From positions 188,021-252,020 of the forward strand of contig JAAOMT010000603.1 in assembly GCA_016748015.1 (NCBI GenBank): DNA of 64,000 nt. Direction: 5' to 3'. Below the pieces are notes generated by a model. The model made no database searches, had not been told where the DNA came from, and saw nothing but the letters and a program-made list of their open reading frames with translations. Both the position numbers and the translations under genes were made by a program. Positions 5,451-44,702 of the stretch are shown one piece after another (positions within the stretch are counted from its first letter, which is position 1; each line of letters opens with the position of its first letter). Source of the DNA: Geosiphon pyriformis (Eukaryota; Glomeromycota; Glomeromycetes; Archaeosporales; Geosiphonaceae).

Positions 5451-5569
5451 GTGTTAGAAACCCAGTCTTAATTTATATAAGTACATAGTATTGTTTTGAT
5501 CAGCTTGAATGGCTGGTCACATGTAAAAAATGTATGATTTACACCTAGTTTAAATTAATTATTTAATGT

Positions 5570-6412
5570 TATTACGGGATGGTTTTCTTGTTATATTTAA
5601 TTGCTGATATCCTGCTTTAATTGCAATCAGTCTTTCGTGAGTTCCTCAATTCTATTTGTGTGATAATGTCACTGTTACACTAAAGGCTTTCTTTTTACTG
5701 TTGCAATGTAAGTTATTCTTTAATTCTTGATTGTTGTGTGTGTTTATGTACTCCTTCTCAGAGGCTGAACTGAAATCTACCCACTGTCTGGGGTCTTCTC
5801 TGAGGCTATCCTTGCAATTGCCTGATGTGTTTCTCTAATCTAGAAACACAGAATGTTAATGGTCTTTAGCGCTTTTCTAATTCTCACAATAAAGCTTTTA
5901 TCAATTAATAACAACGTGAATAATCTTGATCAAGGATTATTCTTCCAAGGGTTTCAGTTGATGAATGATANNNNNNNNNNNNNNNNNNNNNNNNNNNNNN
6001 NNNNNNNNNNNNNNNGTTTTAAATATTTCTTTTTGATTTTTAAAGGTTTCTTGGGATATTTAATTTGAAAGTATGATTTAAAGTGGAGTTTGTTGGATAA
6101 AATTGGATCTATTGCTTGATAAGTTATGATTTTTATTACTTGATTGATTCTTTCTCAATATTAAAACTACTGTATATATACATGTTTGTAGTTCTACGAG
6201 AAAATACTTTCTTTTTGATATTTCAACCTGGTGCTTGCTGCTATCACCAGTTGGTGTTGGCTGCTATTGTAAACTGGTGCTTGCCACTATCGCGAGATGG
6301 TGTTTGCTACTATGTTAATCATTACCTTTCTAAGATTATTAGTGTGCTATATTATGATTGAATAGTTTGTATTATTTTTATGATTCTTTTTGCTAAATTC
6401 TTAAACCGTAAC
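5570..6412. mobile_element. Unclassified ~0.84 kb element inserted in LINE A
   Basis: This segment interrupts the LINE A 3' UTR. AATGT flanks both sides (5565-5569 and 6413-6417), and removing the insert restores the UTR as seen in copy B, so AATGT is a likely 5 bp target duplication. The left end is TATTACGGGATGG and the right end is AAACCGTAAC, so the ends share a short inverted TTACGG. A second, strongly decayed copy lies at 25669-26494. I see no convincing coding sequence; the two open frames here (5853 and 6116) are short and not conserved in the other copy. It is probably a non-autonomous DNA transposon. It contains a 45-N gap. Confidence 0.65.
5971..6015. other. Assembly gap (45 N)
   Basis: A run of 45 N lies inside the nested element. 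The second copy of the element has about 190 bp between the matching anchors, so the hidden length is probably not large. Confidence 0.99.
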
Positions 6413-6461
6413 AATGTATTATATTAGGTAGTGTTTGAACTTTACTTATTAAAAAAAAAAA

Positions 6462-7865: not shown

Positions 7866-8010
7866 AATATAAAACTTCTTTCTTTCCTTTGTCCAAAATT
7901 CCCAAAAAAGAGTCAAAAGTTTTTTCAAAAGAAGTTTTTTTACCATTCAGTACAATAAATCAAAACCGTTCTTCAATTACGAGGCCATTGTTGGCTCTGT
8001 TATTGCTGTT

Positions 8011-14443: not shown

Positions 14444-14555
14444 TGTTGTCCTGACTGGCTCGAATGGCTGGTCACGTGTGGAAAGTGCATGATTCATGCC
14501 TAGTTTAGATTATTTCTTTGATGTATAGTTCTAGGTAGTGTTTGGATCTCGCTTA

Positions 14556-14580
14556 TTAAATAATAATAATAATAAAAAAA
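14556..14580 (+). repeat. TAA-repeat tail of LINE B
   Basis: About five TAA units run into an A run directly after the 3' UTR. It matches the tail of copy D on the other strand. Confidence 0.8.
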
Positions 14581-17220
14581 CAATATTTAAATACTAAGTA
14601 TAACTAATATGTTGTCTTATAGTGTAATGTTAAGTTGTTTCTTCTAACAATTTTTTTTACTTATTTAAAAACTTTTTTGTTGAATATTTATTTATTGTTA
14701 TTTATGTATAATGTTTATAGGTTTAGTTTTTTGCCAATTTTAAAAAACCAATATGTTAATAGAAATTTTTTTTCATATAATTAAGTTGTTTAAAGCTTTT
14801 TTGATTTTTTTAAGTATTTAAGTATATGAATTTTTTTTTAATCTTTTATAAGACTAGAAACATTTAATTCTAGTTGAATTTTGTTTACTTTTTTTTTATT
14901 TAGAGTTCTATATTGTATCTCTTTTTTATCAATTGTAATTTCTATTGGTATTGTAAATTATTGAATTGTTTTAAATAGTTGTTATTAAAGTTTTAGAATT
15001 TTATTTAAAAGATTTATACTAAGAATGTTTTAAGCTTTTTTTTCCATTTTTTTAGTATTTATATATTTAATTTATATAATTCAATTTTTTGTAATTAGAC
15101 TGTATTTCACAATAATAATTAGTTTTAGATCTTATAAAATATTTTTAAGTTTGATTAATAAAATTTGTGTTCCTAGTTAAAAGATAATTGATAATAATTT
15201 TTGTGTTGTATAATAAAGTTTTAAACAATTTTCATGTACAGCTTTTTTTGAAATTCTGTTTTTTAATTATAGTTTATAAGCTCTATTGTTAAGAATTTTG
15301 TATATATAAAATAATTTATCTTATTTCAAATCAAATTTTTTATTCTACTCTTTTTTAGCTTTTGTATAATATAATAATATTTTGTTTTTTATCTTGAATT
15401 TAATTAGTTGTTGTAGTATTTATTATTAATACTTTTGTAAATATTATTGTGTTATTAATTTTAAAAAATAAATAAATAAATTTTATTATAAAATAGTTTA
15501 ATATTTCTATTGGCTATTATAATTTAAGATATTATAATATAATTAACTTTAAAACTTAATTAGTTAATTAATTAAAGTATTATAATGGTTTAACAGATTC
15601 ACTATTTAAAATAAATTTAATTAGTGTATTATTTATTGTTGTTTTTATATATATAATAGTAATTAAACATTTCTTATTTAATACTGTTTTATTAAATATA
15701 GCTTTATTTTTTTATCTTAAAAAAATAATAATTATAAGACTATTATCTTTAGTAATAACTGTTAGTAGTATAGTTTGATTTAAAATTTGATTTTTAAACA
15801 AATTTTTAGCTTTAATTATGTTTTTATTATTATTATTTTCAAAATTCAAGTTTTTTAATATATTAAAATAAGTTTGTCAATAATTTTAATAGTTTAAATT
15901 GACTTGTTAACTAAGTTTTATGTGGTTTGTGTTTTTTTGAATTATTATATTTTTATTTTATATGAATTGATTTTAGGGTTCGAAATACCAATTTGAATTG
16001 ATTATTATAGATTATTGCTAATAAATTCTTTAATTTTGATATGTAATTAAATATTAATATTTTATTAATATATATTAATTTTTGAATATTTATAATAATA
16101 TATAATAATTGTTTTTATGTATTTTATATATTATTTGTATTTAATATTAATTAATTAAATGTTTTATGTATTTGCAAAAATAGCAAATATGTATTTTTGT
16201 TTTAAAGTCTTAATATAATAAGCAATTTTATTAATTATTATTAAATTTCTGATTATATTTTTAAAGTATTTAATAAGTATTGTTTTTTTTAAGTTTAGAA
16301 TAAAATAACTTTTTGTTTTTTTAAAGTTTTTATTTAATTAAAATACTTTTTTTTTAATATTTTTGTTTTATTTTTTTCTATTATTATGTTAATTATTTAG
16401 TTATAATTAATTTTTTTTAGTTAATTTAAGAGCTTTAACTAATATAACAACTTTTGTTAATAAATTAAGATAAGCAAAGTATATATTTTTTAAAATATTA
16501 GTTTTTAATTTTTTAAAATTTAAGAATTAGTGTAATATTTTTGTTTAATTGCTTCAATTTAATAACAAATTTAATTAAATTAAGCAAAATATTAAATAAC
16601 AGTTTTATTTATATCTTGTTTAATAATATTAAATTTGTTTTAAAATTGTATTATAATATTTAAATTATTAAAGTATTTTAATAGTATATTTTTAAATTAG
16701 TTAAAGCTTGTAAATTTTGTTTTTAAGTTTTAATATTATAAGTTGGCAATGTTTTTTAGAAAAAAAAATAATGTTTAAATTGCTTTTTAGTTATTTCAGT
16801 TATTTGCTTAGATGTTTTTTTGACTTTTTTAAATTATATATATATGTCTATTTTTTTTTAAAAATTGGTTAATTATGTAATATATAATATGGCTATTTTA
16901 TTATTATTTTCTGTTAATAAGTTTAATAATTTAAAAAAAGTTAAGAAAATATTTTTTTAAATGTTTCTAAAAATAACTTCTTTTATATTTGAGTTTTTTT
17001 TTTAGTTATGAATTTTTAGGTTTTTTGTTTTAATGATTAGTTTTGTAATTAGTTTTATTTTGGTTTTTTAATAAGCTCTTTAAATTTTAATTCAAATTTT
17101 TTTTCATAATGTTTAAACTTTACTCCAAATTTTGATTAAAAAAAAGATTTTTAGAATAGTAATAAATATTTTTTTGTAATTAATATATTTTTTTAATTAT
17201 ATTGTTTAAGCTTTTTAATA
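14581..17220. other. AT-rich desert
   Basis: About 2.6 kb of extreme A+T sequence with long T and A runs. There is no open frame of note, no RNA gene and no visible similarity to the named elements. The next element (Tc1 type) begins exactly at its end. Confidence 0.6.
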
Positions 17221-18801: not shown

Positions 18802-18938
18802 GTTTTTTTTTTATTAAGCATTTAATGAGTAAAGCCCAACTGTTATCTAGTACATAGAGCCAAACTAAGTGGCCCAAACTAAATGCAACTCACATATTAA
18901 CAACATGTGACTAGTCACTCAGGCCAGACGAGGCAACA

Positions 18939-21900
18939 CTATACACTAATATTAACACGAAGCTTACTATCCAAACCTGAAAAAAAGAGGCAAGGCCTAA
19001 GATGGCCAAAACTGACAGCAAAAGACTCAGCAATGCCAAGTATTCTTACTACACCATCAAAAAGCACAGAAGACACACAACAGAACAAACCCAACACTAA
19101 AACATTATTACCAACCAAGCCAGTCTTCTCCATGTTCACCCTGAATCTAGATCTAACCAACCAGACCTTAGATTAATACAACTCAACCAAAAACCTCACA
19201 AAATCAACCACAATACAGGAAGCCTTCTTAACATTATTGAAAACACCTGCCACTTCAGCACACCAAACCTTCATCACGAAACTCTTACATAAAACTGAAT
19301 ATCTGCCAATATCCAAATAACAAGAATCAAGGACCTAAAGAACAGAAGAGGAGAACAGGTTATGAACACCAACCAAAGAAGTCCAGCGTGCAGAAGCCTC
19401 CAGCAAAATCTTGCCCTGGATATGAACATCCTGTGAACAAGTGAAAACATAGTCCAGCAGCTCCACCTCCCCACACAACAAACACTGAACATCTGAATAA
19501 CATCTATTATACAGCCTCTTTCTGACTGCTATCAGCAATCTCTTATGCAATGCCTTTATCAAATATGTATGAAAATCTACTGACTTGCAGCTAGTAAACC
19601 CAGCAAGCATGTGTGAATCAGGATGCCAGATCTTTACAAAAGCAGCCCAATCAAAATCTCTCAACATGTTAGCCAAAACCACATCTTGACCAGAACCAGC
19701 CTCCCAATAAGCATGACAAATAGACCTAAACACATCCCTAACAAAGTGGCAGGCATTGTCTGAAACTACAGTGTTATCAGTGACCAAAAAACACTTTCAT
19801 ATTCTTATCAGCAAAACAAAAAAAGAGCAGACAGCCTCTCTTGCGAATCTATCAGCTTCCATATTACCAAGAACACCAGCATGACCTTTGACTTTAACCC
19901 AACTCACACTAAGATCCTTATCCTTAATCAAGTCGAAAACATGTCTCCTCTCGACTCAGCATCGATTGCAGAAATCCGGAACTTCAAGCAACATCTCAGA
20001 AATGCACGCATCAATAGCAGCTTGACTGTTGAGATACAACATTACAGAACTAGATGAGGGAACACATTTCAAAGCCAGAGCAACAGCCTGCAACTTCACC
20101 ATAGTAGAGGACAAAAAGCCACAAACTTTGACTCCAACACCCAATCCCAGAGCTGGGAAATACGCAGCTGCACCACTTAATACATCAGCAGATCCAGCCC
20201 CCTTCAAAGACCCATCCGTATATGCCTCAAAACAGCCAGACCAAATCTCATGTAAACTATCCTGCATGGAGGAGAACACATCAGACTTCAAAATGTTCAA
20301 ACCACCAGATTGAACAGCAACAAATAAGTGAGAAGAAAAAAAACTCTGATCCAGAAAGTACTTAGAAGCAACTGTAAACCAAAGAGGCACAAGGCCCCAT
20401 GGATCTAAACACTTTCAGTGATGAAAAGTCTTCCAATTCAACAACAACTCCTTTTTATCGAAAAGCCGATCACCAAAAACAACACCAAAATGCTTAAGAG
20501 AATGAACAGAATTGAAGTACAAAGACTTCCCAAGAATCAAAGACATCGGAAAACAACCAGGATGACAGAAAGCATTGAGGAGATTGTTCACTAAAGAGAG
20601 ATCAATATTCATCAAAATCTTCACAACACCCACTAAAAAATTGTTCACCAGACTAACACACAACTTGATAGGATACTGAAAAGAATTCAAAGGGGTCCAA
20701 CTCAGAACCTGCAAGTCCAAAAACCTATGTTCAAATAAGTGGCCAAGAACACTGGATGCATTAGCAAATGAGACTAAGAAAGCCATCTTTTCCTCAGACT
20801 GCACCTGCTCAAAAGATTTTAGACCATACAGAGAAGAATGATGCAGAGCAGCATCAGGAAAGTGACGAGGTAGATGTGTCTTAGATCTGAAGCCCTTCCT
20901 AACTAAAACATCCCACTTGCAACAAATACCAGATGAAATAAAACTAAATTGCATATGATAACTAACAATGAGCTACAAAACAGCCAACACCAAGTAGGAA
21001 AACTGCTTATCTGTAATCACCTTCCTGAGCACCCTGTTGACAAAAAAACAAACATCTGAGTGAGTTTTGGCCAAACTTGGTTTGGACAACTCTTCAGTTG
21101 ACAAAAAAATTCCCAAATATCTGTGAGCTTTACTCTTCTTGGTAATAGAAATCGGCTGATTATTTATACTCAAAGTAGCAATCTTAATACCCTGATTAAT
21201 AGGTATAGCCACTCTCTTCTCATTGTTTATGGAAATATCATTAATATAAAAAAACTCACTAGCGATATTTAAAGCATATTGCATGGAAGCTTGACAATCT
21301 CTAATCCAAATCATATTATCCACAAAAGTGCCAGCAGCAAAGAAGGAAGACATCCCACCACCATTCTCAATTCTGTCAGTCCTTGCCACAAACTTAGTAT
21401 CAATATAATAACCACACAGATATTCATGCCTTTTAACCTTACACAAGAGCAGGTCATAAAAGATTCTCCAAAGAAGAGACGAGAAAACTTCACCCTGATC
21501 AAGGCCATCATGCACCCTATAACCACTCAAAAAACCAAAATCAGTCATCACCTTATTAACTCTGTCCTCATAAATGCTACCAAAAAAGTCAATAAACCTG
21601 CTGCACATTTTAATACAATGCAGACTAGCTCTTAGGTGGTGTCAACCAACAAAATCATATGCCTTGCACATATCCTACAAAACTAACTACAGTTCTCTAT
21701 TTTTTTCAAGAGCATTCTTAACCACTGATCCAACAGCAAAAACAGGAAATTGTGTTGAAGTACCCTTTAATACCAAGAAATTGTCACCATGGAGAATGCC
21801 AAACCTACTGCACACAAAAGAAATCCTATCTGAAAGAATCTTGGAGAGAATCTTTCTGGCCATCTCTATCAAAGTGATGGGATGAGTGTTTGTCAAAACT

Positions 21901-23629
21901 CTATCCCAATCATAAGGTTTTGGGATCATCGAGACCCAGGCCCTCTTTCATAACGCAGGTACTGAACCAACAGACAAATACACATTCAACAAAACCAAGA
22001 GACACTTCATCACTTCCTTACCACCCCACTTCCAAAGTTTATTAGAAATGCCAGACAAGCCAGCAGCTTTGCTATTAGGCAAACCACCAACAACCAAAAG
22101 CAATTCATCCAAAGTAATAGTACTCATAACACCAAAAAAAGCATTATCCTTAACATGAGCTAAAAGGGCATACTGATGGGCCCAGAGATCAGGCAGCATT
22201 GAAGGCATCATCTGTCTCCTCGTCCAGCCTTTCATGATACTATTAACTTTCAACTTTACCTCTTTAGGCTCCAAAACAAGCTCATCATCAATGACTAAAT
22301 GATTCAACACAACCTTTCGAAAGGGCCAATCCAAAACACTCCTGATCATGCTACTCTTGTCAGAACAAAACTTTTCCATGTGCTTTTCAATAGCTTCTCT
22401 GATGGAAGCCTTCTGCGCCAATTTCGATTCATACAATTTGAACTTTCTGTACTTTTTTTTGATGATTGACAAAAACTTAAGAATGGCAATCTTCTTCCAA
22501 CCTGATTGAACTATATCCATCAACACGAAAGCCTTGTCAGCATCCAAAGTAGACCATTTCCTCACAAAATAATTAAAACCAAGAGTATTAGCCGTGCTGA
22601 ACTTTTTGACAATTTTGATGATTAGCAACTCCAAGCACAGAAACTTAGAGGATTGTTTATTTTTCGAACACTAAAATTTACTGAACCAATGACGAGAAAA
22701 GATTTCATCTACAGAATCTACCAACACCTTTTTTAGCAGAGACTACATAGCATCCAGATCTTGCTCAGCAGCAGCGGCAAGGAAATCATCCTTCATTCCC
22801 AAAACCATGACAGAAGAGCAGTTCCTAAAACGAGACTGTCCAGTAACATTTGCATTCTTGATATTAAACTTCCAGTGATCTTTGTTAGTCTGCTTGCACA
22901 AGCTATTCAAATGAACATTCAAAAGTCCATCCAAACCAACAGAAACCATAACAGCATTGTAATTGGTGTCGAAAAAGTCTGACACCAGGCCAACTCTATG
23001 GCCAGCCACAGCAGAAACCAAATTTTCACTAACAAAAATGAAATCAATAGTTCTTTCGACCCTCCTAGAATTATCCCATGTGGTAGTCCCAACTAAAGGA
23101 TGACCAAAAAATGAATTAACCAAACCCAAACTCAAGCAAAACCTGAAGCTTGCACTCCTCCTAGATCCATTTTTGTTGAAATCCTCACCTAAAACAACAA
23201 AAGTGCTGGAGTTAACAGCCTTAGTAATGAGAAAATTCACTCAGAAGCCTAACCAAAATGAACACCAGAAGAAGCACCAGCATACAATCCAATAACAGAA
23301 ACTGAAAGTTTATTTTTGAACAGAAGCCATACAGCAACAACTTGGCCAGAGACTTTCTCAACTTTAGAGACATAATGAGCCAAAGAATTGTTCATGATGA
23401 TGGCAACACCAGCACTGAGAAAACCAATGTCCAACCCAGAAGTAAAAATACAGACACTTTCATATTTATCCTTGATCTATAGATCAACAGAAGATCTTAA
23501 TTTTGTCTTAGTTACAAAAAAGATTGTAAAGCCAGAATCCATGTGCCAACAGAGAACATCTACTTGCTTTGCAGGAACATTGAGACCCCAAACATTACAC
23601 ATAGTGAGTTTCCAAACCAGGTCACTCAT
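18939..23629 (-). pseudogene. LINE C ORF2 (endonuclease-RT-RNase H), broken
   Basis: The ATG at 23629 sits in an ATGA overlap with the ORF1 stop and opens MSDLVWKL. The endonuclease (~23620-22900) reads VTKTKLR, so its Glu is Lys. The RT region lies at 22634-20973, with DQGEVFSSLLW and a catalytic box FVDN (~21310). RNase H lies at ~20290-19850 (EAYTDGSLK, LYLNSQAAIDAC). The zinc finger CLLCGEVELLDYVFTC is at ~19490-19440 and the tail ends at 18939. Several stops and frameshifts break the frame. In RNase H the usual Asp of SDSQ reads Asn (LNSQ). Confidence 0.85.
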
Positions 23630-25374
23630 TGGGATGAAGAAGGCAAAGGAACACCCAAACTAAAGCACATACCATCCAAACAAGCCAACACCGAACCAAT
23701 AGAAGCTTCCAAGGATGCTAACTTAGATTTCAAACCACTCACCTTGCCAGTGAGAACCTTAGAGCTACTCAAACCGAGAGTAGGCTTACCAACAATGGCA
23801 GCAAAAGAGGGATGAGGAGCAGACAACATCGAAGCACCATCCAAAACTATATCTGAGTCTAAACTCAAAGCCAAAGATGCAGAAGTGTTAAAAAGACAAG
23901 TAAGAGATGAGGACACCAAAGGCACCAGTTCAATACTGGCAAAATGCCTAATGATAGTAGACACTCAGTCAGAAAGAAGCTCTAATGAGCATTCCAAAAA
24001 AGCCAAGCAGTCATTCAAAGAAGAGACATTACCAAAGCCATGATGCAAAAAAGGGATATAATTTGGCCAGCTGGAGATGCCTTTTCTCAGAAACAAAATC
24101 TTTAGAAAATTTAGCCAAAGATAATGATGGCATATTATTAGTAGAAGCATCATATTCAAGTGCCAAATGTCCAAAACGCTCACACCTTCCACACTGAACC
24201 AAATCCAATCTAGCCCAAGAGAGTCGCACACCACCAAAAATAGGCTCAGTGTAAAAGGCGGAATCCAAATCTCTCTCAGATTCAAAGCCAACCACAGCAC
24301 AGCAAAATCTACTACCAGTGTCCAAAGAATGATTAATAATGCAAGTTCTACCACCTGTCCTATCCAAAAGAGTACCAAGATTGTGTGCAGTTGTTTTCAC
24401 TGGCAAAGTAAACAGAAGCACTCTAAAGCAATCCTTAGATGCTCATGTATCACAATCTCCCACAGCCATAGCTACACAAACTGAGTTTTTTCCAATGAGG
24501 AATGACCATTTTGACACCAATAGCTCAGCCTGCCCCAATTCGGTGAACTCTATCACAGCCTTCTGCCATATGCCAATTAACTGAATCTTGATTGATCTGA
24601 TCTCTCCAAACTCGGCAGCTGTGGCGACAATTATTTCCTTTGGTGTATCCATGAGAATTTCTTTGATCACCACAGCCCGATCTGAATGCACTCCTTGTTT
24701 TTTGAGATTGGTGTTTATAACAATTTTATTTTCTCTGGCCAATGATGCAGCCATTTCCATGCTCTTTTCTGATGTAAACATTGATCTGATGATCCCTTTG
24801 AATTTTAAGGGGGTAGTGGCCCCCCAAAACCATTGATTGTTGAGAAAATTTTTCTAATTAACTGAGTCTTCACCATTGCTGATTTACCTTCCACAGCTGA
24901 GAGATTAATATCCAAAGCAAATAATTTCTTAACCGACACCTCTACAGGAGTTTTGATGACCTTGGAATTAATCCAAATCTTATCCAAAAGAACCTTTTTC
25001 CTAAGGGGAGATGGAAGAGGCTTCACCTCTTCATCCATTTTAAAGTCAAGAGAACCAATAGGAGAACCAAAATTCACACCAGTATTCACTCGTTTAGTCT
25101 TGGGAGTATTAACAGCTGAGTCCAAGAGAAAACCATCAAAACCACCAGACATACTAACATTATTATTATTACCAGATAGGCTCTCCATATCAGAATATAT
25201 ACTAGCACCAGAACCAGACTTCAAAAAAACATTCTTTTCATCACCAGAGTGTTTAACATTTCCAAGAGAAGCTTTCTTTCTTTGTAAAAAGGAACCACTA
25301 GCAGGATCATGAAACACGCCCTTAGGAGCCTTCTTACTAGACATGCTGCCACTAAAGACAGCCTTCAAATCCAC
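23626..25374 (-). pseudogene. LINE C ORF1, broken
   Basis: It starts at an ATG (25374; MDLKAVFSGSMSS). The first 189 residues are Ser/Lys-rich and end in INGFGG, where a run of six G (24821-24826) breaks the frame; copy D has seven. The second part (24781-24443) is RRM-like, with VVIKEILMDTPKEI. The third part (24421-24029) has the second RNA-binding-like block and a knuckle reading CGRCERFGHLALEY, where Tyr replaces the last Cys. The fourth (23964-23626) is Ser-rich with a coiled-coil-like stretch. The stop TGA (23628-23626) overlaps the ORF2 ATG. Confidence 0.8.
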
Positions 25375-25668: not shown

Positions 25669-26494
25669 TATTACGAAATAATTTTTTTGGTATATTAAAT
25701 ATTGATATTTTTATTTTAATTACAATTAGTTTTTTGTAAATCTCTTAAATATATTTATGTAATATTATTAATATTATATTAAAGACTTTTTTTCTGATAT
25801 TATAATATAAATTATTTTTCAATTTTTAATTGTTGTGTATATTTATGTATTTTTTTAAAAACTAAACTGAAATTTATTTATTGTTTTAAGATTTTTTTTA
25901 AGTTATTTTTGTAATTGTTTAATGTGTTTCTCTAATTTAAAAACATAAAATGTTAATAATTTTTAATGTTTTTCTTAATTTTTACAATAAAGTTTTTATT
26001 AGTTAATAATAATATAAATAATCTTAATCAAAATTATTTTTTCAAAAAATTTAGCTAATGAATAATAATTTTATTTAGTAAATAACACAAGTAATTTTTT
26101 TAATACTTTTAATTATTATAATTTAATTTTTAATATTATTTTTTATTTTTTTTTAATTAAAAGTTTTTTTAACTATTTATTTAAAAATAAAAACTAATAA
26201 ATAATTAAAATAGAAGATTAGAAGCTAACAAAATAATTTTTTTTAATATTAAAATTACTATATATATATATGTTTGTAGTTTTATAAAAAAACACATTGT
26301 AATACTTTTTTTTTAATATCTTAATTTGATATTTACAATTATTATTAGTTGATACTTACTGTTATTATAAGTTAATACTTGCTGTTATTATAAAAAAATA
26401 TTTACTATTATATTAATTATTATTATTATTATTATATTATATTATAATTGTATAATTTATATTATAATTTTTTACTAAATTTTTAAACTATAAT
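25669..26494. mobile_element. Second, heavily decayed copy of the 0.83 kb element
   Basis: This aligns with 5570-6412 from end to end: TATTACGAAATAATTTTTTTG for the left end and AAACTATAA for the right. Internal blocks include TTGTTGTGTATATTTATGTA, AATGTGTTTCTCTAATTT and GTTTGTAGTTTTATAA. Nearly all differences are C-to-T or G-to-A relative to the other copy. In one 47 bp block (5775-5821 against 25871-25917) I count 19 differences: 16 are such transitions, 3 are transversions, and none is a transition in the opposite direction. No coding potential remains. Confidence 0.75.
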
Positions 26495-26672
26495 TGCAGT
26501 TATTTGTATTTATTATTATTATATTAAACTTTTTTGTAATTTTAAATAAAATCTTAAATAAAATTTTTTTAGTAATAATTAGTCTTTTTTTTAATATAGA
26601 TAATAATAACAATAATATGTTTTTTAAAATAAGTAAAAATTAATTATTAATTGTATTATTAAATATAATATA
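26495..26672. other. AT-rich spacer
   Basis: A+T-rich DNA between the decayed element and the tail of LINE D. No gene seen. Confidence 0.5.
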
Positions 26673-26673
26673 T

Positions 26674-26698
26674 TTATTATTATTATTATTATTATTTA
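26674..26698 (-). repeat. TAA-repeat tail of LINE D
   Basis: About eight TAA units on the minus strand (TTA on the plus strand) end the element, next to the UTR that begins at 26699. It is a microsatellite-like tail as in copy B, but longer. Confidence 0.8.
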
Positions 26699-26811
26699 AT
26701 GAGCGAGGTCCAAACACTACCTAAAACTATACATCAAAGAAATAATCTAAACTAGGCGTGAATCATGCATTTTCCACATGTGACCAGCCATTCGAGCCAG
26801 TCAGGACAACA

Positions 26812-29800
26812 CTACGCAATTATATTAACTGAAACCAGGTTACCAATATCTGAAAAAAAAGAGCAAAATTTGTGAAAGCCAAAACAGATGCCAAAAGCTT
26901 CAATAACACCAAGCAGCTTAACCACGTCATCTGAGAATCTTGATGCCAAACCAGAAAGTGAGACGGAAACCAAGCCATCCACCAGGATTAGGCCATTCTT
27001 TTCTATGTATGCATGATGCTTAGCATGGACCAACCAAATGTCATCCCTGAAAGCAACACAAATAGAGCATACAAAATCAGCAATTTTAACGCCAGCAATT
27101 TTGGGATTACGGAAGATGGAAACAGCCTCCTGAAGCCATCCTTTGAAAACAAAACCCTTGTAAAGAGCCAAGAACACCAGAAAATCTGAAGCACAGGTCA
27201 ACAGCAGCTGTAAAACGCTTAAAGAAGGGAGGAAGAGACCAGAAAGCACCATTCAAGAAGACATACAGGATTCCAAAACCCGACGATGAGCCGCACCATC
27301 AATTATACAAGAAAACACATAATTAGACATCTTCATCTCACCACAATACAGACACAAAACACTAGGGTAACATTTATCATAAACGCGCTTTCGAACAGCC
27401 ACGGGAAGCTGATGGTGCAAAGCTTTCATGAAGTAAGTACAAATATCAGCAGTGCGCCTGCTGGTGAAACCAGCCACCATATGCAAATCAGGGTACCAAA
27501 CTCTAAAAGAGGCAAGCCAATCGACATCCGAGTGCAAATTACCAGCTAGAAACCCAGAACCAGAACCAACCTCTCAGCATGCCCAACAAACAGCATGAAA
27601 AACATCTTGAACAAAGTGTCTAAAATTACCAGAAACAATACCACCATCTGCCAACAAAAAATGTTCATCCACACAAGGAGGAAGAAGCCAAACAGAGAGA
27701 GCTGCAGCATCAGCGATGCTATCAGCGCAATCATTTCCCAACACACCAGAGTGGCTCTTAACCTTGTGCCAGCTAATCCTCAAATTTTTTTTGTGGATAA
27801 TATTCTTAATATGCTGGCACTCAACTCAACACCGATTTCAAAAGTCAGAATACATCAAGTTCACCTCCAACTTGCAAGCATCCAAAGCTGCCTGGCTATC
27901 TGAAAACAGGCAAACAGAATGATCTACAGACATGCACTCCAGAGCCAATGCTACAGCCTGCAACTCCACCAAAGTAAACGACATCAAACCCTGAACACAG
28001 ACACCCAAACCCAAGTTAATGTCCTCAAAAAAAGCAGCAGCTCCGGTCCTACAACCAGCCATGTCCAAATTTTTCACTGACCCATCCATATACACAGACA
28101 AACTATCAGCGCTAATCCAAGAAAGATGATCACATACAGACACAAAATCATCAGAACCACAAATGTCCATAGGGCCAACACCACCCGAAGCCAAAGGAGA
28201 GGAAAATGCACCATTGAGGAATACAACAAAGTGCCCGAACCACTCAAGAACTGGACCACGAGGATCCAGTTTCTTCCATCACTTAAAAATGTACCAATCA
28301 AAAATATTCTCATGACAATCTTGAAGCTGATCCACAAAGGCAATGCCATAATGCCAAAGAAAAGACAAGTACTTGAAAAACAAGGATTCGCCCAGAACAG
28401 CAGATATGGGCACCTCATCACGAAACCAAAAAGAGCTGGCCAAAGAGCCACCTAAAGACAAATTGCATTCAAGAAGAATGCGTACCAAACCTGACAAGAA
28501 ATTATTGGAAACACTGACATAGATACGAGCCGGTGAACTCAATGGATGAATGGGGCGCCAACACAGAACTTGCAAGTCATAAGATCTGTGACTAAACAAT
28601 TGACCCAGAACCCCGCAGGTGTTTGCAAAACTAATAAGTGAAGCAATCTTGCTTTCAGACTGACATTGTGAGAAGAACTTCAAACCATAAAAGAAAGGAT
28701 GATGAATTATGTTACTAGGAAAATTGAGAGGAAGACCAGATTTAAGTTTCAAACCCTTGCAAATCAGAGCATTCCACTTGTTGTACACACTGACAGGGAT
28801 AAAGCTGAACTGTGTCCTGTAGCTGACTATAGGATAGAGAACAGCCAACACCAGGTACAAGAACTGCTTATCTGAAACTGCTTTTTTTAGAACCAAATTG
28901 CTGAAAAAACGAACATCCGAATGCGTCTTAGCCAAACTAGGCTTAGAAAGACCATCAGATAAAAGAAAGATGCCAAGATACTGATGAGATTTGCCTTTTT
29001 TGGCTATGGAAATGGGTAAACTACTAATAAAAAGAGATGGGTTGCTGATCCTGTTATTAATAGAAATGGCCACAGTTTTATCATTGTTGATTGAAATGTC
29101 ATTAATCCGAAAAAATTCACTAGCAACATTGAGAATATGTTGAGTAGCAGTCTGACTGCTGCCAATCCAAATTGTGTTATTGACAAAGGCCTTAGCAGTA
29201 AAAAAAGTAGAAAACCCAGTCTGAGATTCAGCACAACCATTCCTAGAGACAAAATGAGAATTGAGTCTATACTCATACACACTCTCCTGACACTTGACCT
29301 CACACAAAAGAGGATCATAAAATATGTGCCAAAGAAGAGGAGAAAAAACTTCTCCTTGGTCCAACCCATCATGTACACTATAACCATTAGTTAAACCAAA
29401 ATCTGTTATAACCTGATTGGTCCAATTTCTATGAATATTACCGAAAAAATGAATAAACTTGCTACACATTTTGATCCTAACCAAACACTTCTCGAGATGC
29501 TCCCATCCAACAGAGTCATACGCTTTTCGCATATTCTGCAGCACCAGCCAGAGCTCCCAGTTCTTCTCCAAAGCATCCTTAACAACCGAACCAATAGCAA
29601 AAATAGGAGTTTGGGAAGTTGTACCCTTCAAAACTGAAAAATTATCCCCATAAAGAACATCATGAGCACTGCACGCCAGCGATATCCTGTTGGAGAGAAT
29701 CTTGGAAAGGATTTTGTGAGCCGTCTCAATCAAGGCTATAGGTCTGGTATTTGTGAGAACACCTTTCCATTCATATGGTTTAGGGATCATTGAAACCCAA

Positions 29801-31491
29801 GCTTCCCTCCAAGAACCAGGCACAGATTCATGAAACAGACAAGAATTCAGAAGCACCAAGAGCATATCCAGAACAGACCTATTATTATGCATCCACAGCT
29901 CATTCAAAATACCCAAAAGACCAGCAGTCTTGCCAATAGGCAAATTAAAAATCACATCAAACAATTCCAAAAACCCAATTGGCTGCATAACACCAAAAAA
30001 AGCCTCATCAAAAATGTAATCCAATGGCCGATACTGACAGTGCCACACATCAGAGACATTGGGAACCACTCTACGTTTCCTAGTCCATCCTTCCATGATT
30101 TCATCCACCCTTAATCTCACAAGACCAGGTTCCATAACCAGCTCATTGTCAACGACCAAGTGATCTAAGATGACCTTATGGGAAGAGCACTCCAGAATGC
30201 TCTGAATAGTGTGACCCTTGTTCAGCTCGAAACTTTCCATCCTTTTATGGATTGCTGATTTGATTTGAGATTCCTCTACATGCTTCGATTCTGCCATTTT
30301 AAGTGAGCAATAAGTTTTTCTGATCTTGGAAAGAGCTGACCAAACAGTATCAAGAGGAGAGCTGGAGAGAAAGAGAGACCTAACTACAGAGGCATTATCA
30401 TCATCAAGAGAACCCCAGACTTCCAACAGTAAAATGAATTCGTCACAACAAATCGATCAAGAAGCTTTAACCAGCTTCGATATCAAAAGTTCTAACTTAT
30501 GAAATTTGGATGATTCCTTAATGAAGACACTATCACAGTTCTTAAATCATTTTCTCTTGAACACCTTATTAGCTGAAAGAACCATTATTTTGTGAACAAT
30601 GTCCTACATCGTATCCAAATCTGAGAATTGCTGGGAAGCAATAAATTTATCAGAGAACATGGCGGCATTAACTGCCATAGCACCCTTGAACTTGTTCTAT
30701 TTTGTATCATCAGCACCCTTAAAATTAAACTTCCAACAATCTCTATTCGCCTGTTTGCAAAGAGAGTTCAATTGCATGTCCAATAAACCATCTAAATCCA
30801 AAGACACGGAAACAGCCTGATGGTCTGTTTCGAAATGTTTACCAACATCTGAGACACTGCGGTGTACTATCACATTAACCAAATTTGAAGAAACTAACAC
30901 GTAGTCAATCATTTTTTTAACATCTCTAGAGTTTGCCCAAGTAGGCAATTTCACAGCCAGGCTTCCTACCAAAAAATTTGCCAGACCCAAATTAAGGCAC
31001 TTCCTAAAACTTGCACATTTACGAAAACTATTCTTATTGAAATCACCACCAAGAACAATGAAAAAAGATTTATTGACAGTCTTTGCAATGAGAGAGTTGA
31101 TCTTACCAGCCTGAGAAAACCAAACCACCAGAGAAGCACCAACATAAAGCCCCAGAATTGACACAAAAAGTTTACCCTTGAAAAGTAATTTAACAGACAG
31201 AAGCCAACCAGGCACCTCAGAAACCTTGCACACATGATGAGCCAAAGAAATGTCCATGATAACAGCAACACCTGCACCCAAGTAACCAGAGTCTGAACCA
31301 GAAATAAACACTCAGACACCATCAAACTTATCTGCAATCCACAGACAAACCTTACTCCTTAATTTCATTTCAGTAATGATAGAGACTAAATTGTTCATTT
31401 TCTTATGCCACCTAATAACATCCTTCTGCTTAGCAGGATTGTTCATGCCTTTGACATTGCACGTAGCAACTTTCCAGACTAAACTGCTCAT
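26812..31491 (-). pseudogene. LINE D ORF2 (endonuclease-RT-RNase H), near-complete but inactive
   Basis: The ATG at 31491 overlaps the ORF1 stop (ATGA) and opens MSSLVWKVATCNVKG. The endonuclease (31491-30700) has ITEMKLR, LGGDFNKNS and TDHQAVSV. The RT frame 30426-28279 contains NTRPIALIETAHK, DQGEVFSPLLWHIFYDP and the box FVNN (~29187-29198), both catalytic Asp replaced by Asn. RNase H (28194-27574) shows VYMDGSVKN, LFSDSQAALDAC and SHSGVLGNDCADS. The zinc finger CLYCGEMKMSNYVFSC lies at ~27350-27305 and the tail ends at 26812. Stops lie at ~31315, 30424, 28279 and a few other places. The function would be target-primed reverse transcription of the element's RNA, but the active site is lost. 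Confidence 0.88.
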
Positions 31492-33282
31492 TGAGTGAGG
31501 GATAGAAACACCAAACATGTATCTAAACTATCCACTTTGGCCAAAAGGTCCAGAACCATTTCCATTAGACACCTCATGCTGTTTTCTAGCTTAGACACTG
31601 AAGACATATCAAAAGACTCCACTCCCACGACAGTCCCACTACTAGTGGACACACCCAAGCCCCCATTCATCACTACATCCGCCCCTTGATCCTGTGATAA
31701 AGAGGTCACCAATAGCTGACATCCAGGGCTAGGCTGAGGAACCATTGGCCCGAGTGCATCCAACTTCTTAGCCAGCTTACCAACTTGTTCTGCGAGGCAG
31801 GCGAGACTGTGCTCAAGAACGGCGAACCTATTGTTGACCTCCATCATAACTGGCAGGGACGGCTTCATCTCTGAAAAGAAGCCATTGTCTACCAAAACCT
31901 TCTGACTAGAGAGAGGGAGCGAAGAAGACCTGCAAACAACTTTTGCCTAAGAGAGACCACCAAAAGAGACCAGACAAGCAACTGGAGCCAAGCATTTGGC
32001 ATAAATGGCTACCAGCCTGCTTTTATCCGTGTCTGAGAAAGCCCTACGCAGTGAATTACCAGAAGAAAACTTCCCACCAACTACACAACTCAATAACGTA
32101 TGACCCAACTTCTCACACTTGGCGCATTTAGTAGAGATAAGATGAGACCAGTGGAGATTGGTGTTTCTAAGTACTGGCGTGGTTCCCACGGCAGCATCCA
32201 ATGATTCAGCAGAATCGAAGCAAACAACAGCACACCTGGCCCAAGCATACATAACAAAATGATAATCAATGACGCACATTTTCCCATCCACAGATTTAAC
32301 AAAATCCCAGATATCATGAAGCATTAGTCCCCATTGGCAATGTGTAGAGCAGTGCCCTATGTTGATCTCTTACATCCCATGCCTTTTTGTCTGAATCAGC
32401 CCTGGCCACATGTACAGCATCTTTCCTGATTAAAATGGACTACTCAGCTGCGACCAAATCAGCCTGATCCGTTTGCTCAAATTCTATCACTGCCTTCTGC
32501 CACAGCCCAATTAACTGTATCTTAATCACCTTAATAACTCCAAACTCAGATAGCGCAGCACACACAGCCTCAGCTGATGTTCCAATTGGAATTTCTTTTA
32601 TGACCACAGCCTGATCTGATTGCTCAGATGATTTTTTGAGATCAGTATTTACTAGGATTTTTGCATTTACAGCCTTATCAGTAGTTTTTATTAGACTCGA
32701 TTCGAAAGTGAATGCCACTCTGATGATCCCTGAGAATTTTGAGAGGGTAGATGCCCCCCCAAAACCATTGATTCCAAAAAATAATTTCCTCACTACCACA
32801 AGCTTTTCTTGAGAAGAATTGCCGGCTACCTTATCCAAGCCAATATCTAACGCGAATGACTTCCTGACTGAAACATTGACCAAGTTTTTCAAAGGAGGGG
32901 GGAGCTCAAGAGGAGCATCTGAGAGAATACTATCACCATCACTATCCTTTGAGAAATCAATCTTTCCTAACGGCTTGCCCAATGTCTTCTTGGTTTTGAC
33001 TTTTGAACTCGTAAGTGTTTGATCATGATCCCTACCAGCCAGAACACCACCTTCACCAAAATCAAAGCTGGTCTCTTCTACCAGACACTCCTCTTCCATA
33101 TCAATACTCTCAGACTCAGTAGTGTCCTCAGTTTCTGAACCCCATGAACAGCTCTTCTGGACTTTAGAAGCCACTTTTTTGCCACTGGAACCATTTTTCA
33201 AAACACCACCTCTTCTCTTCTTTCTCGACAAAACCATCTCAAAACCATCACCAGAACTAGAACTCTTAGCAGTCTTCTTCAT
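31488..33282 (-). pseudogene. LINE D ORF1 (nucleic-acid-binding gag-like protein)
   Basis: The first ATG is at 33282 (MKKTAKSSSSGDGF), though the frame is open upstream to 33369. The order is a basic N-terminus (RKKRRGG), an acidic stretch (ESESIDMEEECLVEE), a Lys-rich region, an RRM-like block (VVIKEIPIGTSAEAV), a stop at 32440 (TAG for Trp), a second RNA-binding-like block from 32324, and an intact CCHC knuckle CAKCEKLGHTLLSC (~32120-32080). A coiled coil follows (VGKLAKKLDAL). The G run at 32754-32760 has seven G and keeps the frame. One extra T near 32310 shifts the frame relative to copy B. The stop TGA is at 31490-31488. Confidence 0.83.
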
Positions 33283-33428
33283 AATAGCAGTATTTGGGCC
33301 AACGGTGGCCTTGTAATCGAACAAAAACAGTTTAGAGATATTGTACTGAATGGTGAAAACTTCTTTCAAAAAACTTTTTAGACTCTTTTTTGGGATTTGT
33401 GGATGAATGAGAGAAAGAAGTTTTTAAA

Positions 33429-33617
33429 ATATTTTATATTATAATATTTTTTAGTAAATTATTATTATTTTTAAAAACAAAACAAAACATATTTTTAAAT
33501 ATATTTTTAATTAATTAACTTATTAAGTTATTTAATTTTAAAGATTGAACTAATCAAATAAAAATTAAATCAACTATTTTTTTCTGTTTTTTGGTATTGT
33601 TTTTTGGTATTGTTTTT
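33429..33617. other. AT-rich spacer between LINE D and LINE E
   Basis: Only ~190 bp of A+T-rich DNA separates the 5' end of D from the tail of E. It contains two near-identical GTTTTTTGGTATT units (33586-33612). Confidence 0.5.
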
Positions 33618-33637
33618 TTTATTTATTTATTTATTTA
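33618..33637 (-). repeat. TAAA-repeat tail of LINE E
   Basis: About five TAAA units on the minus strand, directly after the 3' UTR motif ACTTCACTAGT. The unit differs from the TAA units of B and D. Confidence 0.75.
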
Positions 33638-33750
33638 ACTAGTGAAGTTCAAATACTACCTAGTATAATACATCAACTTAGTAATCTAAACTAGGCATGA
33701 ATCATGCATTTTTCACATGTAACCAGTCATTTAAGCTAATCAAGACAATA

Positions 33751-36700
33751 CTATGTGTCTATATGAACTGAAACTACACTATCTAAATTTGAAAAAAACT
33801 GACAAAAATTACAAAAACCAAAACTAACACTAATGGCATCAGCAATACCCAACAATTTAACTATACCAGCAGAAAACACCAAAGAAAGCTTAAACACTGA
33901 GACCAGAACAGACCCATTATGTAAAATTAGTCCGTTTTTTTCCATAAAAGTCTGGTGTTTGACATAAGTCAACCAAACTTCCTCCCTGAATGCAAGGCCA
34001 AATTTGTGTACAAAGTTTACAACTGTTTGACCTGTAATTTCAAAATCTTTAAAAATAAAAAAAAATTTCCAATACCAATTATTGAAAACAAATCTTTTGC
34101 TTAAAGCAACACACATGACAACATTGGAAGAACAAAAACTTAAACACTATAACACACACGAGACTGTGCAAAACAGACCAGAAATCACCTTCCAATTGGC
34201 AGCATAGGTGTTCAGCAACTGAACATGAATATCAGAATTGAACGAGCAAGAAAAAGTGTGGTCTGAGATCTCAATATCTTTACAAAACAAACATACTACA
34301 CTCAGATAATTCTTGATATACAAACACTTATGAACAGCAACAGGAAGCCAGTGATACAAAGCCTTTATAAAGTAAGTGCGAGCTCTAGCAGTACTTCTAC
34401 TAGTAAAACCAGAGGCCAAATGCAAATTAAGATGCCATACCAAGGATGACCTAAACTAATCAATGTTAGCATGCAAAGTGTCCACCAAAACTCGAGAACC
34501 AGAGCCAATCTCCTAATATGTCCAATGGACAGACTAAAATATATTACAAACAAAATGTCTAGAATTAGCAAAAACAATGCTACCACCAGCTCTAATATGA
34601 CAATTAGCAATACAATAAGAGAGATACAGATTAGAAAAGCAAGCAGCCTTTGTGAAAGTATCAGCACACTCATTGCCCAAAACTTCCAAATAACCCTTGA
34701 TCTTATGCCAACTGACTTCCAAATTTTTTTTATGAATAACACCCATGATGTAATGATGCTTAATTTAACACCAATTTCAGAAATTAGGACACAACAAGCC
34801 CAACTCCAATTTACATACATCCAAAACAAACTGACTGTCTGAGAAAATTTGAACTGAACTAAAAGAGAGAACACACTCAAGTGCCAAAACAATAGCTTGT
34901 AGTTCAGCCATAGTAAAGAACACCAATCTAGAAACTTTAACACCCAAATTCAAACCAATGTTTCCAAAGAAAACTGCTGCACCAGTCTTTATGTCTGAAG
35001 TTCTCAAACTGCTAAGAAAACTATCTGTATAAACAGAAAGACAACCAGCATTAACACTTAACAAATAGTTACAAATAACCCCAAATTTATAAGACTCAAG
35101 AATGTTTAACAAATTAATGTTCACCAAAAGAGGCAAACAAATGAAAGAAAAAAGAGCACCATTAAGAAAATGAACAGAAAGCTTGAACCAGTTAGGAATT
35201 GGGTCATGCAGGTCCAATTTTTTCCACCACTTAAACGTTTTCCAATCAAAAACTGCACCAGCACAATTGTAAAGCTGTTTAGCAAAAGCAATTCCATACT
35301 GCCAAAGTGAAAAGACATTTAAAAAACTTAGGACTACTGAGAACAAAAAACAAAGAGATACCACCTCAGTAACAAAAAGCATTAGTCATAAGATCACCCA
35401 AAGACAAATTATACTTGAAAAAGATGCAGACTACACTAGCCAAAAAATTATTTAATGAATCAACATTAACACGAAACAGAAAAAGCAAAGGATAATAAAA
35501 ATTCCAGCTAAGCACTTGCAAATCATGTGACCTATATGCAAACAGACAACCCAGAATGCCAACTGAATTTGAAAACCAAACAACAGAAGCAGACTTGTCC
35601 TCAGCTTGAATCTGTTCAAAAATCTTTAAATTATACAATGAGAGATAATGAAGTACATCATTAGAAAAGTCATGTAGAAGACCAGATTTGGACTTTAAGT
35701 TTTTGTGAATTAAAGTGTCTTACTTATTATACACACTAACAAGAACAAACCTAAATTGAGACCTATAGCTGACAATTGAGAAAAAAACCACTAACACCAA
35801 ATACAAGAACTGTTTATTAGAGATAGTTTTTTTCAACACAAAATTGGCAAAAAAATGAACATCCACATAAGTTTTAGCCAAGCTGGGCTTTAACAAGCTC
35901 TCAGTAAACAGAAAAATACCCAGGTACTAATAAAACTCCCCTTTTTTAGCAATAGAAATAGACAGACTATTAATCAACAAAAAAAAGTGTACAACTTTGC
36001 AATTAATGAGAATGGCCACAGTCTTGTCATTGTTGATTAAAATGTTATTAAGCCAAAAAAATTCACTAACAATATTGAAAATATGCTGAGTAGTAGTTTG
36101 ACTGTTACCAATTCAAATTGTATCATTGACAAATACATCAGCAGCAAGAAAAGATATCAAACCAGCTTAAGATTCTAAGTGACCAGTTCTGGCAATGAAG
36201 TGCGAATTCAACTTGTACCCACATATACTTTTCTGTCTCTTGATTTCACACAACAGAGAATCATAAAATATGCACCAAAGAAAAGGTGAGAATACCTCCT
36301 CTTGGTCCAAACTATCATGCATTTAATAACTGTTTGTTAACCCAAAATCAATCATAACTTTGTTGACCCAACTGTTGTAAATGCTGCCAAAAAATCAAAT
36401 GAATTTATCTCACATCTTTATTCTTACTAAGCTTTTTTTAAGATGCTTCCATCTAACAGAGTCATAAGTCTTCTGCATGTCCTATAATACAAGCCATAGT
36501 TCATGGTTCTTCTCCAAGACATCTTTAATAACTGAACCAATTGCAAAAATAGGAGATTGTGTTATTGTGCCTTTTAAAACAGAAAAATTATCCCCTCTGA
36601 AAACATCAAAAACACTGCATGCTGAAAAAATTCTGTCTGAAAGAATTTTGAAAAGGATTTTGTAAGCTATTTCAATCAAAGCAATTAGATAGGTATTCAT

Positions 36701-38437
36701 AAAAACTCCCTTTTACTCATATAGTTTGGGGATTATTGACACCCAAACTTCTCTCCAAGACTTAAGAACAGACTCATAACACAAACAAGAATTCAAAAGC
36801 ACCAAAAACATATCCAAAACTGACTTGTTACAGTGTTTTTATAATTCATTTGAGATGCCAAAAAAACCAACCGCTTTTTTATTAAGCAGATTTGAAATCA
36901 CACTGAGCATCTTATTAAAACCAATTAAGCACATCACACCAGAGAAAGCATCATTAAAAATGTACTCTAAAGATTAATATTAGTGACACCAGTTATTAGA
37001 AATATCAGTTGTCATCACATGCTTCCTAGTCCACTTCTCTATAATTACATCCACTTTGGCCTTAACCAGATCAAGATCCAGAACCAATTCATCATTAACA
37101 ACCAGATAATTCAGAGTAATCTTGCAAAAAAAATACTCTAATACACTCCTAATAGTATAACTCTTGTTTAACTTAAAGCTTTCCATCCTTTTATTGATTG
37201 ATGACCTGATTTGAGAAACTCTAGCACACTCCAATTCCGACATCTTAGAAAAATGATAAAACTTCTTAACTTTAGCCAAAACTGAACAAATAGTGTCAAA
37301 ATGAAAACCCAAAAGAAAGAAAAACTCTACCACAGAAACATTAACTGCATTCAAACTGTGTTATTTAACAAGCAAAAATACAAACTTCTTACTAGAAATC
37401 AGATGAAAGGCCTTAACAATTTTAGACACCAAAAGCTTCAGCTTGTAAAACCTAGACAACCCCTTTGTAAAAACACTGTTATAGCTCTTAGATTATTTTC
37501 TCTTAAAAACTGTATCAGCTGATAGACACACCACTCTGTGAAGTGTATTTCATATTACATCCAAGTCCGAGTGCTTTCCAGATGCAAAAAACTTATTATA
37601 AAACATAATAGCATTCACTGTCATATTTTCTTTAAACTTAACTCACTTGATATCATCTATATCTCTGTAGTCAAATTTTCAACAATCCCTATTTGTTTGC
37701 TTGTAAAAGAAGTTTAGCTGCATATCAAGCAATCTACCTAAACTCACTAATATGGAAACAGTCTGATAATCAGTATTAAAAAATTTTCTAACATTAAACA
37801 CATTATGATCTACCACAGCATTAACCAAGTTCAAAAAAATGAACAAAAAATTAATTGTCTTAGCCACACCCTGAGAGTTAGCTTATGTTGGCATTTTTAC
37901 ATAAGAATTTCTACTCAAAGAATTGACCAAACCAAGATCCAGACACTTTTTGAAACTGGCACATTTATGAGAACTATCCTCATTAAATTTGTCATCCAAA
38001 ACAATAAAAGAGAATTTATTCATGGCTTAAGCAATCATAGAATTAACATTACCAGCTTGGGAGAATCAAACCACAGGAGAAGTATCAACATAGAGCCCCA
38101 GAATCAAAACAGAAAGTTTATTTTTGAAGAATAACTTGAGAAAGAGGAGCCAACCAAATATTTCAGAAACCTTATACACATGTCTTATCAATAAATTGTC
38201 CATGATAATTGCAATACCAGAACCCAAATGACCAGAGTCTAAACCAGAAGTAAAGACCCAAACACCATTAAACTTATCCATAATCTATGGGTAGACTTTA
38301 TTCTTCAACTTAGTTTCAGTAACAACAGAAATCAAATTGTTTACTTCTTTATGCCAATGAATTATATCAGCCTGTTTCACAGAATTGTTTATACTCTTAA
38401 AATTACATGTGGCAATTTTCCAAACCAAATCACTTAT
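33751..38437 (-). pseudogene. LINE E ORF2 (endonuclease-RT-RNase H), dead copy
   Basis: The ORF2 start reads ATA at 38437 where C and D have ATG. The endonuclease keeps VVTETKLK and GLDSGHLGSGIAIIMDN but has stops. The RT catalytic box reads FVND (~36123-36134): the first Asp is lost and the second kept, unlike the other copies. RNase H has VYTDSFLSS, IFSDSQFVLDVC and KGYLEVLGNECADT, with Tyr for the usual His. The zinc finger CLFCKDIEISDHTFSC is at ~34295-34248. The tail ends at 33751. Stops and frame changes are frequent. Confidence 0.83.

Positions 38438-42563: not shown

Positions 42564-44702
<2,139 letters not shown>

Follow-up and report, generated by a model that had tools for sequence, protein, structure and literature searches.

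Change from C to T, on both strands, far outpaced all other base changes in an LTR family of Geosiphon pyriformis; it occurred in all sequence contexts, was about fivefold faster at CpG and proceeded without bursts. The family is represented by two copies, A and B, in the stretch of DNA analyzed (64,000 nucleotides, hereafter the window; Table 1). The reading that we prefer, with confidence that is about evenly balanced, is a slow, transposon-biased C>T change in all contexts, a RIP-like erosion rather than RIP, which would probably arise from deamination of 5-methylcytosine (5mC).

Table 1. Features of the window, with positions counted from its first nucleotide.
Feature	Position	Strand	Details
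Copy A, young LTR (Ty3/gypsy), best read as solo	5570-6412	+	45 bases are N
Copy B, old, decayed LTR (family of A), best read as solo	25669-26494	+	GC 10.2%
Left target-site duplication of A	5565-5569		AATGT, read in the sequence; matches 6413-6417
Right target-site duplication of A	6413-6417		AATGT, read in the sequence
LINE copy P	7793-14609	+	RNase H domain in 12980-13864
LINE copy Q	26645-33497	-	open 725-aa reverse transcriptase frame at 28279-30456 (RVT_1, 2.9e-12)
LINE copy R, AT-richer	1518-5574	+	GC 29%
LINE copy S, AT-richer	33608-38440	-	GC 32%
LINE T, distant relative	18903-24838		
AT-rich stretch	41001-42500		GC about 9-10%
Gene island	47300-62700		250-bp windows of 29-49% GC
UHRF1-like host gene	60521-62573	-	ubiquitin-like, PHD, SRA and RING domains in that order

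The ends, the target-site duplications, the flanking sequences shared among copies and the interior of one element (L036) make solo LTRs of a single Ty3/gypsy family the best reading of copies A and B. The copies inspected from the set returned by a genome search with A have ends of the form TG(TTACGG)...(CCGTAA)CA with small variants. If the LTR end is CA, as in these other copies, the duplication beside A is ATGT instead of the five bases in Table 1; other young copies have 4-bp duplications, e.g., CCAG, CTGG, CTGC, GTGC, and CTGT, and no recognizable target-site duplication was found in the flanks of B. One common sequence follows some copies and another precedes others, as expected of 5' and 3' LTRs. 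The LTR of L036 is adjoined, on the opposite strand, by a region with the Ty3/gypsy order of reverse transcriptase (RT), RNase H and integrase; profile matches in this single element, whose interior is mostly N, include RT_RNaseH (8e-38) and Integrase_H2C2 (2e-14), with RVT_1 below the cut-off (24.4 vs. 29.6 bits). The family thus combines TG..CA LTRs, short duplications and, in one element, L036, the RT-RNase H-integrase order, all of which characterize Ty3/gypsy elements, and the plus strand of the window is best read as antisense to the element genes.

Searches of the 124.7-Mb genome placed A in a young set, with matched pieces 88-100% identical and mostly 97-99% (40 of 940 candidates scored, A included), and B in an old, AT-rich set, in which the other 39 copies were 76-86% identical to B (40 of 1244 candidates scored, B included). 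An rRNA locus of this genome, with eukaryotic SSU and 5.8S rRNA, contains a glomeromycete primer site that has one mismatch; G. pyriformis belongs to the Archaeosporales of the Glomeromycota. A has a GC content of 31.6%; its membership in the young set led us to reject A as the ancestor of B. The proposal that B is part of a neighboring LINE was also rejected because A and B share an orientation while the adjoining LINEs are in opposite ones. Some loci were of unusual structure: one (L025, contig C395) has tandem LTRs, with a second LTR behind a partial one, and another (L089) has an old, AT-rich LTR fragment between GC-richer ends that, by eye, resemble an inverted repeat, as if it lay within a DNA transposon. 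An end sequence similar to that of L089 seems, again by eye, to be present near positions 5500-5560 of the window.

The original prediction was that A and B align end to end and differ almost only by C>T and G>A toward B, on both strands and at sites not limited to CpG. The copies did align end to end, over 776 ungapped, unambiguous sites with 67.4% identity, and the direction was borne out on both strands (82 C>T and 84 G>A, 166 in total, vs. 9 T>C and 5 A>G, 14 in total). "Almost only" was too strong, given that transversions made up 73 of the 253 differences (29%; 48 A<->T, 20 G:C>T:A, four A:T>C:G, and one C<->G) in addition to the 14 reverse transitions. Normal frequencies of transversions and reverse transitions had been named as evidence against a directional process; A and B come part of the way to such frequencies (73 and 14 of 253), and the family does not (31 and 14 of 361). 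On the plus strand, C had become T at 20 of 25 sites before A, seven of eight before G, 10 of 13 before C (one gapped) and 44 of 67 before T (three gapped); as predicted, non-CpG sites were strongly affected, in this pair and in the family alike. Within the limits given for each control, the A-B excess exceeds that expected from chance or composition.

The spectrum was characterized across the family by aligning 118 copies, which comprised A, B, 57 young, 20 intermediate and 39 old copies, the class being the search that returned them. Their GC ranged from 0.34 to 0.08; intermediate copies occupied 0.20-0.30 and none of the sampled copies fell between 0.143 and 0.199. Each copy was compared with its two nearest neighbors where those agreed (triplet count), which used the 113 of 118 copies with at least 600 letters and left out five shorter ones. 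The rows of L025 (tandem dimer) and L051 (contig end) were dropped; a count of 34 copies was made also without L034, L035, L054, and L055. The 55 young copies had 316 terminal C>T changes (176 C>T plus 140 G>A) over 11315 C/G sites, compared to 10 T>C, four A>G and 13 A<->T over 24882 A/T sites and 18 other transversions. Per site, C>T was about 50 times as frequent as A>G and about 53 times as frequent as A<->T. A stricter count of the same 55 copies admitted only changes seen in a single copy and dropped columns changed twice, so fast sites, CpG above all, were undercounted; it gave 84 C>T, 11 reverse transitions and 18 transversions (C>T 26 times A>G and 32 times A<->T). The first count, with 34 copies, gave 70, 9, and 16, respectively. 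The implied equilibrium GC was 2.9% by triplets vs. about 8% from the 34-copy count, by hand. The three counts thus disagree in magnitude and in equilibrium GC and agree in direction.

In intermediate and old copies, C>T common to the neighbors mimics T>C and biases the triplet count; the ratio to A>G was therefore taken from young copies only. With this bias, the counts were 561 C>T, 113 reverse transitions and 46 transversions in intermediate copies and 383, 776, and 353 in old copies. When the 40 old copies, B included, were compared instead with a young copy (L042), C>T had occurred at a mean of 0.67 of C/G sites, with A>G at 0.028 and A<->T at 0.038.

Every context contributed to the change in the young LTRs. 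The C>T rate was highest at CpG (75/676, 0.111), followed by CpC (57/1578, 0.036), CpT (89/4100, 0.022), and CpA (95/4960, 0.019), and CpG differed from the rest with an odds ratio of 5.4 (p 5e-26). No preference for CpA was found in the 55 young copies. Non-CpG cytosines alone had changed at 241 of 10638 sites, a rate roughly 43-fold that of A<->T (13/24882; ratio by hand). CpG methylation alone was rejected as the cause, given this excess, which requires non-CpG methylation or another cause. Old copies compared with L042 had the same leading context (CpG 0.81, CpC 0.71, CpA 0.67, and CpT 0.63), and a preceding T or C mildly increased the C>T rate in old and young LTRs. In the 34-copy count, CpG accounted for two of the 70 C>T changes and was not elevated; the probable reason is that columns with repeated changes at CpG drop out, and 52 CpG counts remained under a similar strict-singleton rule. 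The two strands were not equally affected: on the window strand, young LTRs had C>T at 174 of 4975 sites vs. G>A at 138 of 6118 (odds ratio 1.57, p 1e-4), a 1.57-fold asymmetry that is unexpected under a fully symmetric process.

The distribution of changes among copies bears on whether they arose in a burst. Strict singletons per young copy had a mean of 2.05 and a variance of 2.46, which is near-Poisson, and none of the 55 copies was hypermutated; the near-Poisson singletons therefore indicate slow decay with no burst. Copies with more C>T also had more A<->T (Spearman 0.74, 113 copies, with the count biased in old copies). C>T builds up slowly and in parallel with transversions until GC has fallen to about 10%. 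By RIP indices, B is a nominal pass (TA/AT 1.12, substrate 0.72) and the AT-rich stretch in Table 1 nearly passes (1.11 and 0.75, respectively). A scan of the window with these indices classified 10 of 250 segments as RIP-like, or 15 of 250 with a looser cut.

LINEs provided a second transposon test. Between copies P and Q there are 893 transitions and 107 transversions, a transition-heavy spectrum like that of the LTRs. Within their reverse transcriptase frame, transitions at codon positions 1, 2, and 3 numbered 85, 62, and 109 and transversions eight, zero, and six, a pattern close to neutral decay. The context rates were 0.515 at CpG, 0.303 at CpA, 0.254 at CpC, and 0.215 at CpT, so there may be a weak CpA preference among non-CpG sites in this pair. 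When the differences were polarized with other LINE copies, the P branch had 73 C>T/G>A vs. 62 reverse transitions with nine transversions (five A<->T), and the Q branch 80 vs. 68 with eight (five A<->T); C>T thus still far exceeded A<->T on both branches. We ascribe these near-equal reverse counts, provisionally, to C>T in the AT-rich outgroups because a T common to them can hide an ancestral C. Compared at sites where P and Q agree, R had 562 C>T, 210 reverse transitions and 307 transversions, and S had 606, 290, and 449, respectively. The distant relative T had 536, 448, and 1071, an ordinary mixture.

Host genes and gene duplicates, all of them coding, served as controls in place of the non-repeated intergenic DNA in which an equal spectrum had been named as a second refutation. 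A Sel1-repeat gene adjoining the gene of a putative DNMT2-like methyltransferase (L017), so read from its sequence, has paralogs at 139 places (40 of 193 candidates scored), and 20 of these, 78-87% identical to the query, were compared together with the query. The 21 sequences had 289 terminal C>T changes, 285 reverse transitions and 508 transversions (ts/tv 1.13); these paralogs are older, with a nearest distance of 12-19%, and their polarization is worse. CpG was the fastest context here also (54/395 vs. 0.037-0.069 elsewhere). At third positions, C>T exceeded A>G 4.7-fold and A<->T 6.9-fold; the frame was that of L017, in which an internal stop and a change of frame led to the exclusion of bases 572-608. 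The Sel1 family (L017 and 20 loci, L135-L154) has a third-position GC of 11.9%, near 12%, vs. 25-32% at fourfold sites of four window genes. Another observation was a DNMT1-superfamily gene (L009, contig C318) with a second, inverted copy about 32 kb away (L013) that is about 90% identical and is without part of an exon. This duplicate had 33 C>T, 20 reverse transitions and 24 transversions (ts/tv 2.2, unpolarized) over 1100 columns, which were restricted to stretches at least 75% alike. The LTRs differed from the Sel1 set in C>T against the rest (Fisher, p 3e-96) and from the methyltransferase pair in ts/tv (Fisher, p 1e-6). Part of the AT bias is genome-wide because Sel1 third positions are AT-biased and CpG is fastest in Sel1 too. 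Host DNA is thus moderately AT-biased and transposons add a several-fold C>T excess; the LTR spectrum, which neutral drift would produce in other DNA of the genome as well, was absent from both coding controls.

DNA flanking the LTRs became poorer in GC with LTR age, from 0.31 beside young copies (58) to 0.23 beside intermediate (20) and 0.14 beside old copies (39) across 117 loci, which fits a regional process or simple co-aging. The C>T rate of young copies was 145/4937 where flank GC was at least 0.33 (24 copies), 97/3346 where it was below 0.28 (16 copies) and 70/2810 between these values (14 copies), and no correlation with flank GC was found (rho -0.04, 54 copies). Within the window, AT-rich stretches of 8.6-14% GC meet the gene island at a sharp boundary. 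Positions 47300-51100 (GC 30-42%), which contain genes in part (LSM, ATG101), returned only themselves from the genome search. Two head-to-tail copies of 2139 bp at 42564-44702 and 44723-46861, 20 bases apart and spanning the start of a protein kinase gene, represent either a very recent duplication or an assembly artifact; they give no spectrum because they are 100% identical.

Components that could methylate transposons were detected in the genome. A ubiquitin-like/PHD/SRA/RING layout is that of a reader of maintenance methylation in animals and plants, and animal UHRF1 reads hemimethylated CpG. The UHRF1-like gene of the window (SAD_SRA 3.1e-39, ubiquitin 1.2e-11, PHD 3.6e-9, RING 1e-10) is a candidate partner of a DNMT1-type enzyme. 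A profile search of the genome with PF00145 gave 10 exon-level matches at seven distinct loci, two of which match DNMT1 chains in PDB; another has a weak, adjoining BAH-like stretch (21.1 bits vs. a 30.8 cut-off) for which a PDB search gave no match. Motif VI reads ENV in five of the seven loci (L009, L010, L012, L014, and L017); the reading excludes L015 and L016, and L013 is without this stretch. None of the five loci read has the EQT or EET motif VI by which RID is defined in the accessible part of one paper (PMC6709928), and the arbuscular mycorrhizal fungal (AMF) clade is stated, in the excerpt available of another, to have RID (PMC8298701). Loss of uracil repair was considered and rejected because uracil-glycosylase matches exist in the genome. 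These comprise four pieces matching TIGR00628 'ung' at contig C271 (best 1.8e-14, fourth 0.29; none above the whole-protein cut-off) and one PF03167 match at contig C282 (25.2 bits vs. a cut-off of 24.3), whose GINPG motif we take to be of the MUG/TDG type.

Methylation data are at hand for a related fungus. For Rhizophagus irregularis, excerpts of two studies give 32.5-49.5% of cytosines methylated (PMC8298701) and mCG sites equal to 13.8% of cytosines, mCG being low in older transposons (PMC8647823). If both figures are right, much methylation lies outside CpG there, which is a lead, as the methods differ. 5mC is nearly undetectable in early-diverging fungi generally, according to the part available of a 2026 review (PMC13297926).

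Taken with the spectra, these components suggest how the decay might come about, and we infer that the C>T excess follows transposon silencing. Transposons would be recognized and silenced, and DNMT1/DIM-2-like enzymes, together with the UHRF1-like reader of the window, would methylate their cytosines at CpG and in other contexts. Deamination of 5mC would then yield T that is poorly repaired, during nuclear division and with no pre-meiotic burst, and copies would drift to about 10% GC. The original prediction had likened the footprint to RIP or to deamination of methylated cytosine; the two-strand C>T excess in transposons, not limited to CpG and absent from both host controls, stands, and known RIP is not supported. 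A stronger version would be that Geosiphon, of a lineage long considered asexual, has a dedicated, transposon-directed C-to-T mutator that acts continuously in nuclear division, in every context and without RID; we regard this as unlikely. Screens tuned to CpA could miss such a mutator because its context is broad.

Plain AT drift, in which mutation is biased to C>T genome-wide, selection alone keeps genes GC-richer and dead transposons display the neutral spectrum, is possible but doubtful. The equilibrium GC implied by young copies (2.9% or about 8%) is not far from that of the AT-rich stretches, Sel1 third positions are low in GC, and flanks decay alongside the LTR. However, the methyltransferase duplicate, though without part of an exon, still has a ts/tv of only 2.2, fourfold sites of the four window genes keep 25-32% GC, and the Sel1 third-position ratio of C>T to A<->T is 6.9 vs. 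32-53 in young LTRs, and selection would not readily depress a third-position ratio to that extent. Faster C>T mutation of heterochromatin through late replication and poor repair, with neither methylation nor transposon recognition, would account for the fall of flank GC with LTR age class at the 117 loci and for the sharp junction of gene island and AT-rich stretches. This regional explanation appears quite unlikely, as the mutation rate of young LTRs is the same whether their flanks are GC-rich or AT-rich and the fivefold CpG rate in LTRs points to methylation for a part at least, although Sel1 genes likewise change fastest at CpG.

Two further explanations involve known deaminating or mutating systems. 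LINEs are usually copied at the target, and the LINE pair has the same spectrum as the LTRs, which argues against APOBEC-like deamination of cDNA during retrotransposition, before insertion. The 1.57-fold asymmetry does run in the direction that deamination of minus-strand cDNA would give (G>A on the coding strand of the element), but change continues with age, flanks are AT-richer beside older copies and both strands are affected, and we consider such deamination very improbable. Classical RIP, in which repeats sensed by homology are mutated in a pre-meiotic burst that requires RID, is largely contradicted and seems to us barely credible. C>T on both strands, the nominal index pass of B and near-pass of the AT-rich stretch, and the RID stated for the AMF clade (excerpt of PMC8298701) are in its favor. 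Nevertheless, many copies remain mostly 97-99% identical with near-Poisson singletons, LTRs have no CpA preference, five methyltransferase motifs read ENV rather than EQT/EET, and few window segments (10 of 250, or 15 with the looser cut) are RIP-like by index. The Sel1 repeats, 78-87% identical to the query, were spared as well, and the DNMT duplicate also has an ordinary spectrum.

If slow, transposon-biased C>T decay is the correct reading, mutational decay of transposons extends to an early-diverging fungal group, the glomeromycetes; a dedicated mutator would, if real, bring RIP-type genome defense to early-diverging fungi. The finding offers an explanation for AT-rich intergenic DNA in glomeromycetes and makes it possible to test cleanly if the decay is driven by non-CpG 5mC. 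Even if drift or heterochromatin mutability is responsible, the spectrum and the clock can be used to date these elements. Our search of titles and abstract openings, mostly of open-access papers, found no spectrum of this kind described for Geosiphon or for any other glomeromycete. RIP-like signatures are described as unique to ascomycetes in the part available of a 2025 survey (PMC12543289) and as present in 10 genomes of Ascomycota and Basidiomycota in that of a 2026 review (PMC13297926), and RIP was not detected in the glomeromycete Gigaspora margarita, as cited in an excerpt of PMC8647823.

The nearest known case is the Dim2-dependent mutation of the ascomycete Zymoseptoria tritici, a mitotic C>T change of transposons linked to the cytosine methyltransferase DIM-2 and called a mitotic version of RIP, in which more than 98% of C>T is at CpA and CpG is not mutated (excerpt of PMC8016269). 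Both systems have a C>T excess in transposons over genes and no burst; unlike Zymoseptoria, Geosiphon LTRs changed in all contexts with CpG fastest, and the enzyme link proposed here is a deduction. The RIP-like context of Microbotryum is reportedly TCG/CGA, whereas that of Geosiphon is broad. This basidiomycete with expanded Gypsy elements resembles Geosiphon in having RIP-like mutation of transposons outside the ascomycetes (partial text of PMC5381629). RIP of Neurospora and other Ascomycota likewise affects both strands of repeats, where C:G becomes T:A, and leaves AT-rich relics (excerpts of PMC13297926 and PMC12543289). In contrast to RIP, decay in Geosiphon is slow and burst-free, has no CpA preference in LTRs, spares host duplicates and is accompanied by no RID-type motif in the loci read. 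Silenced transposons of plants and vertebrates undergo clock-like C>T through deamination of 5mC at CpG. Geosiphon LTRs share this clock-like C>T change and differ in the decay of cytosines outside CpG, which runs at some 43-fold the rate of A<->T.
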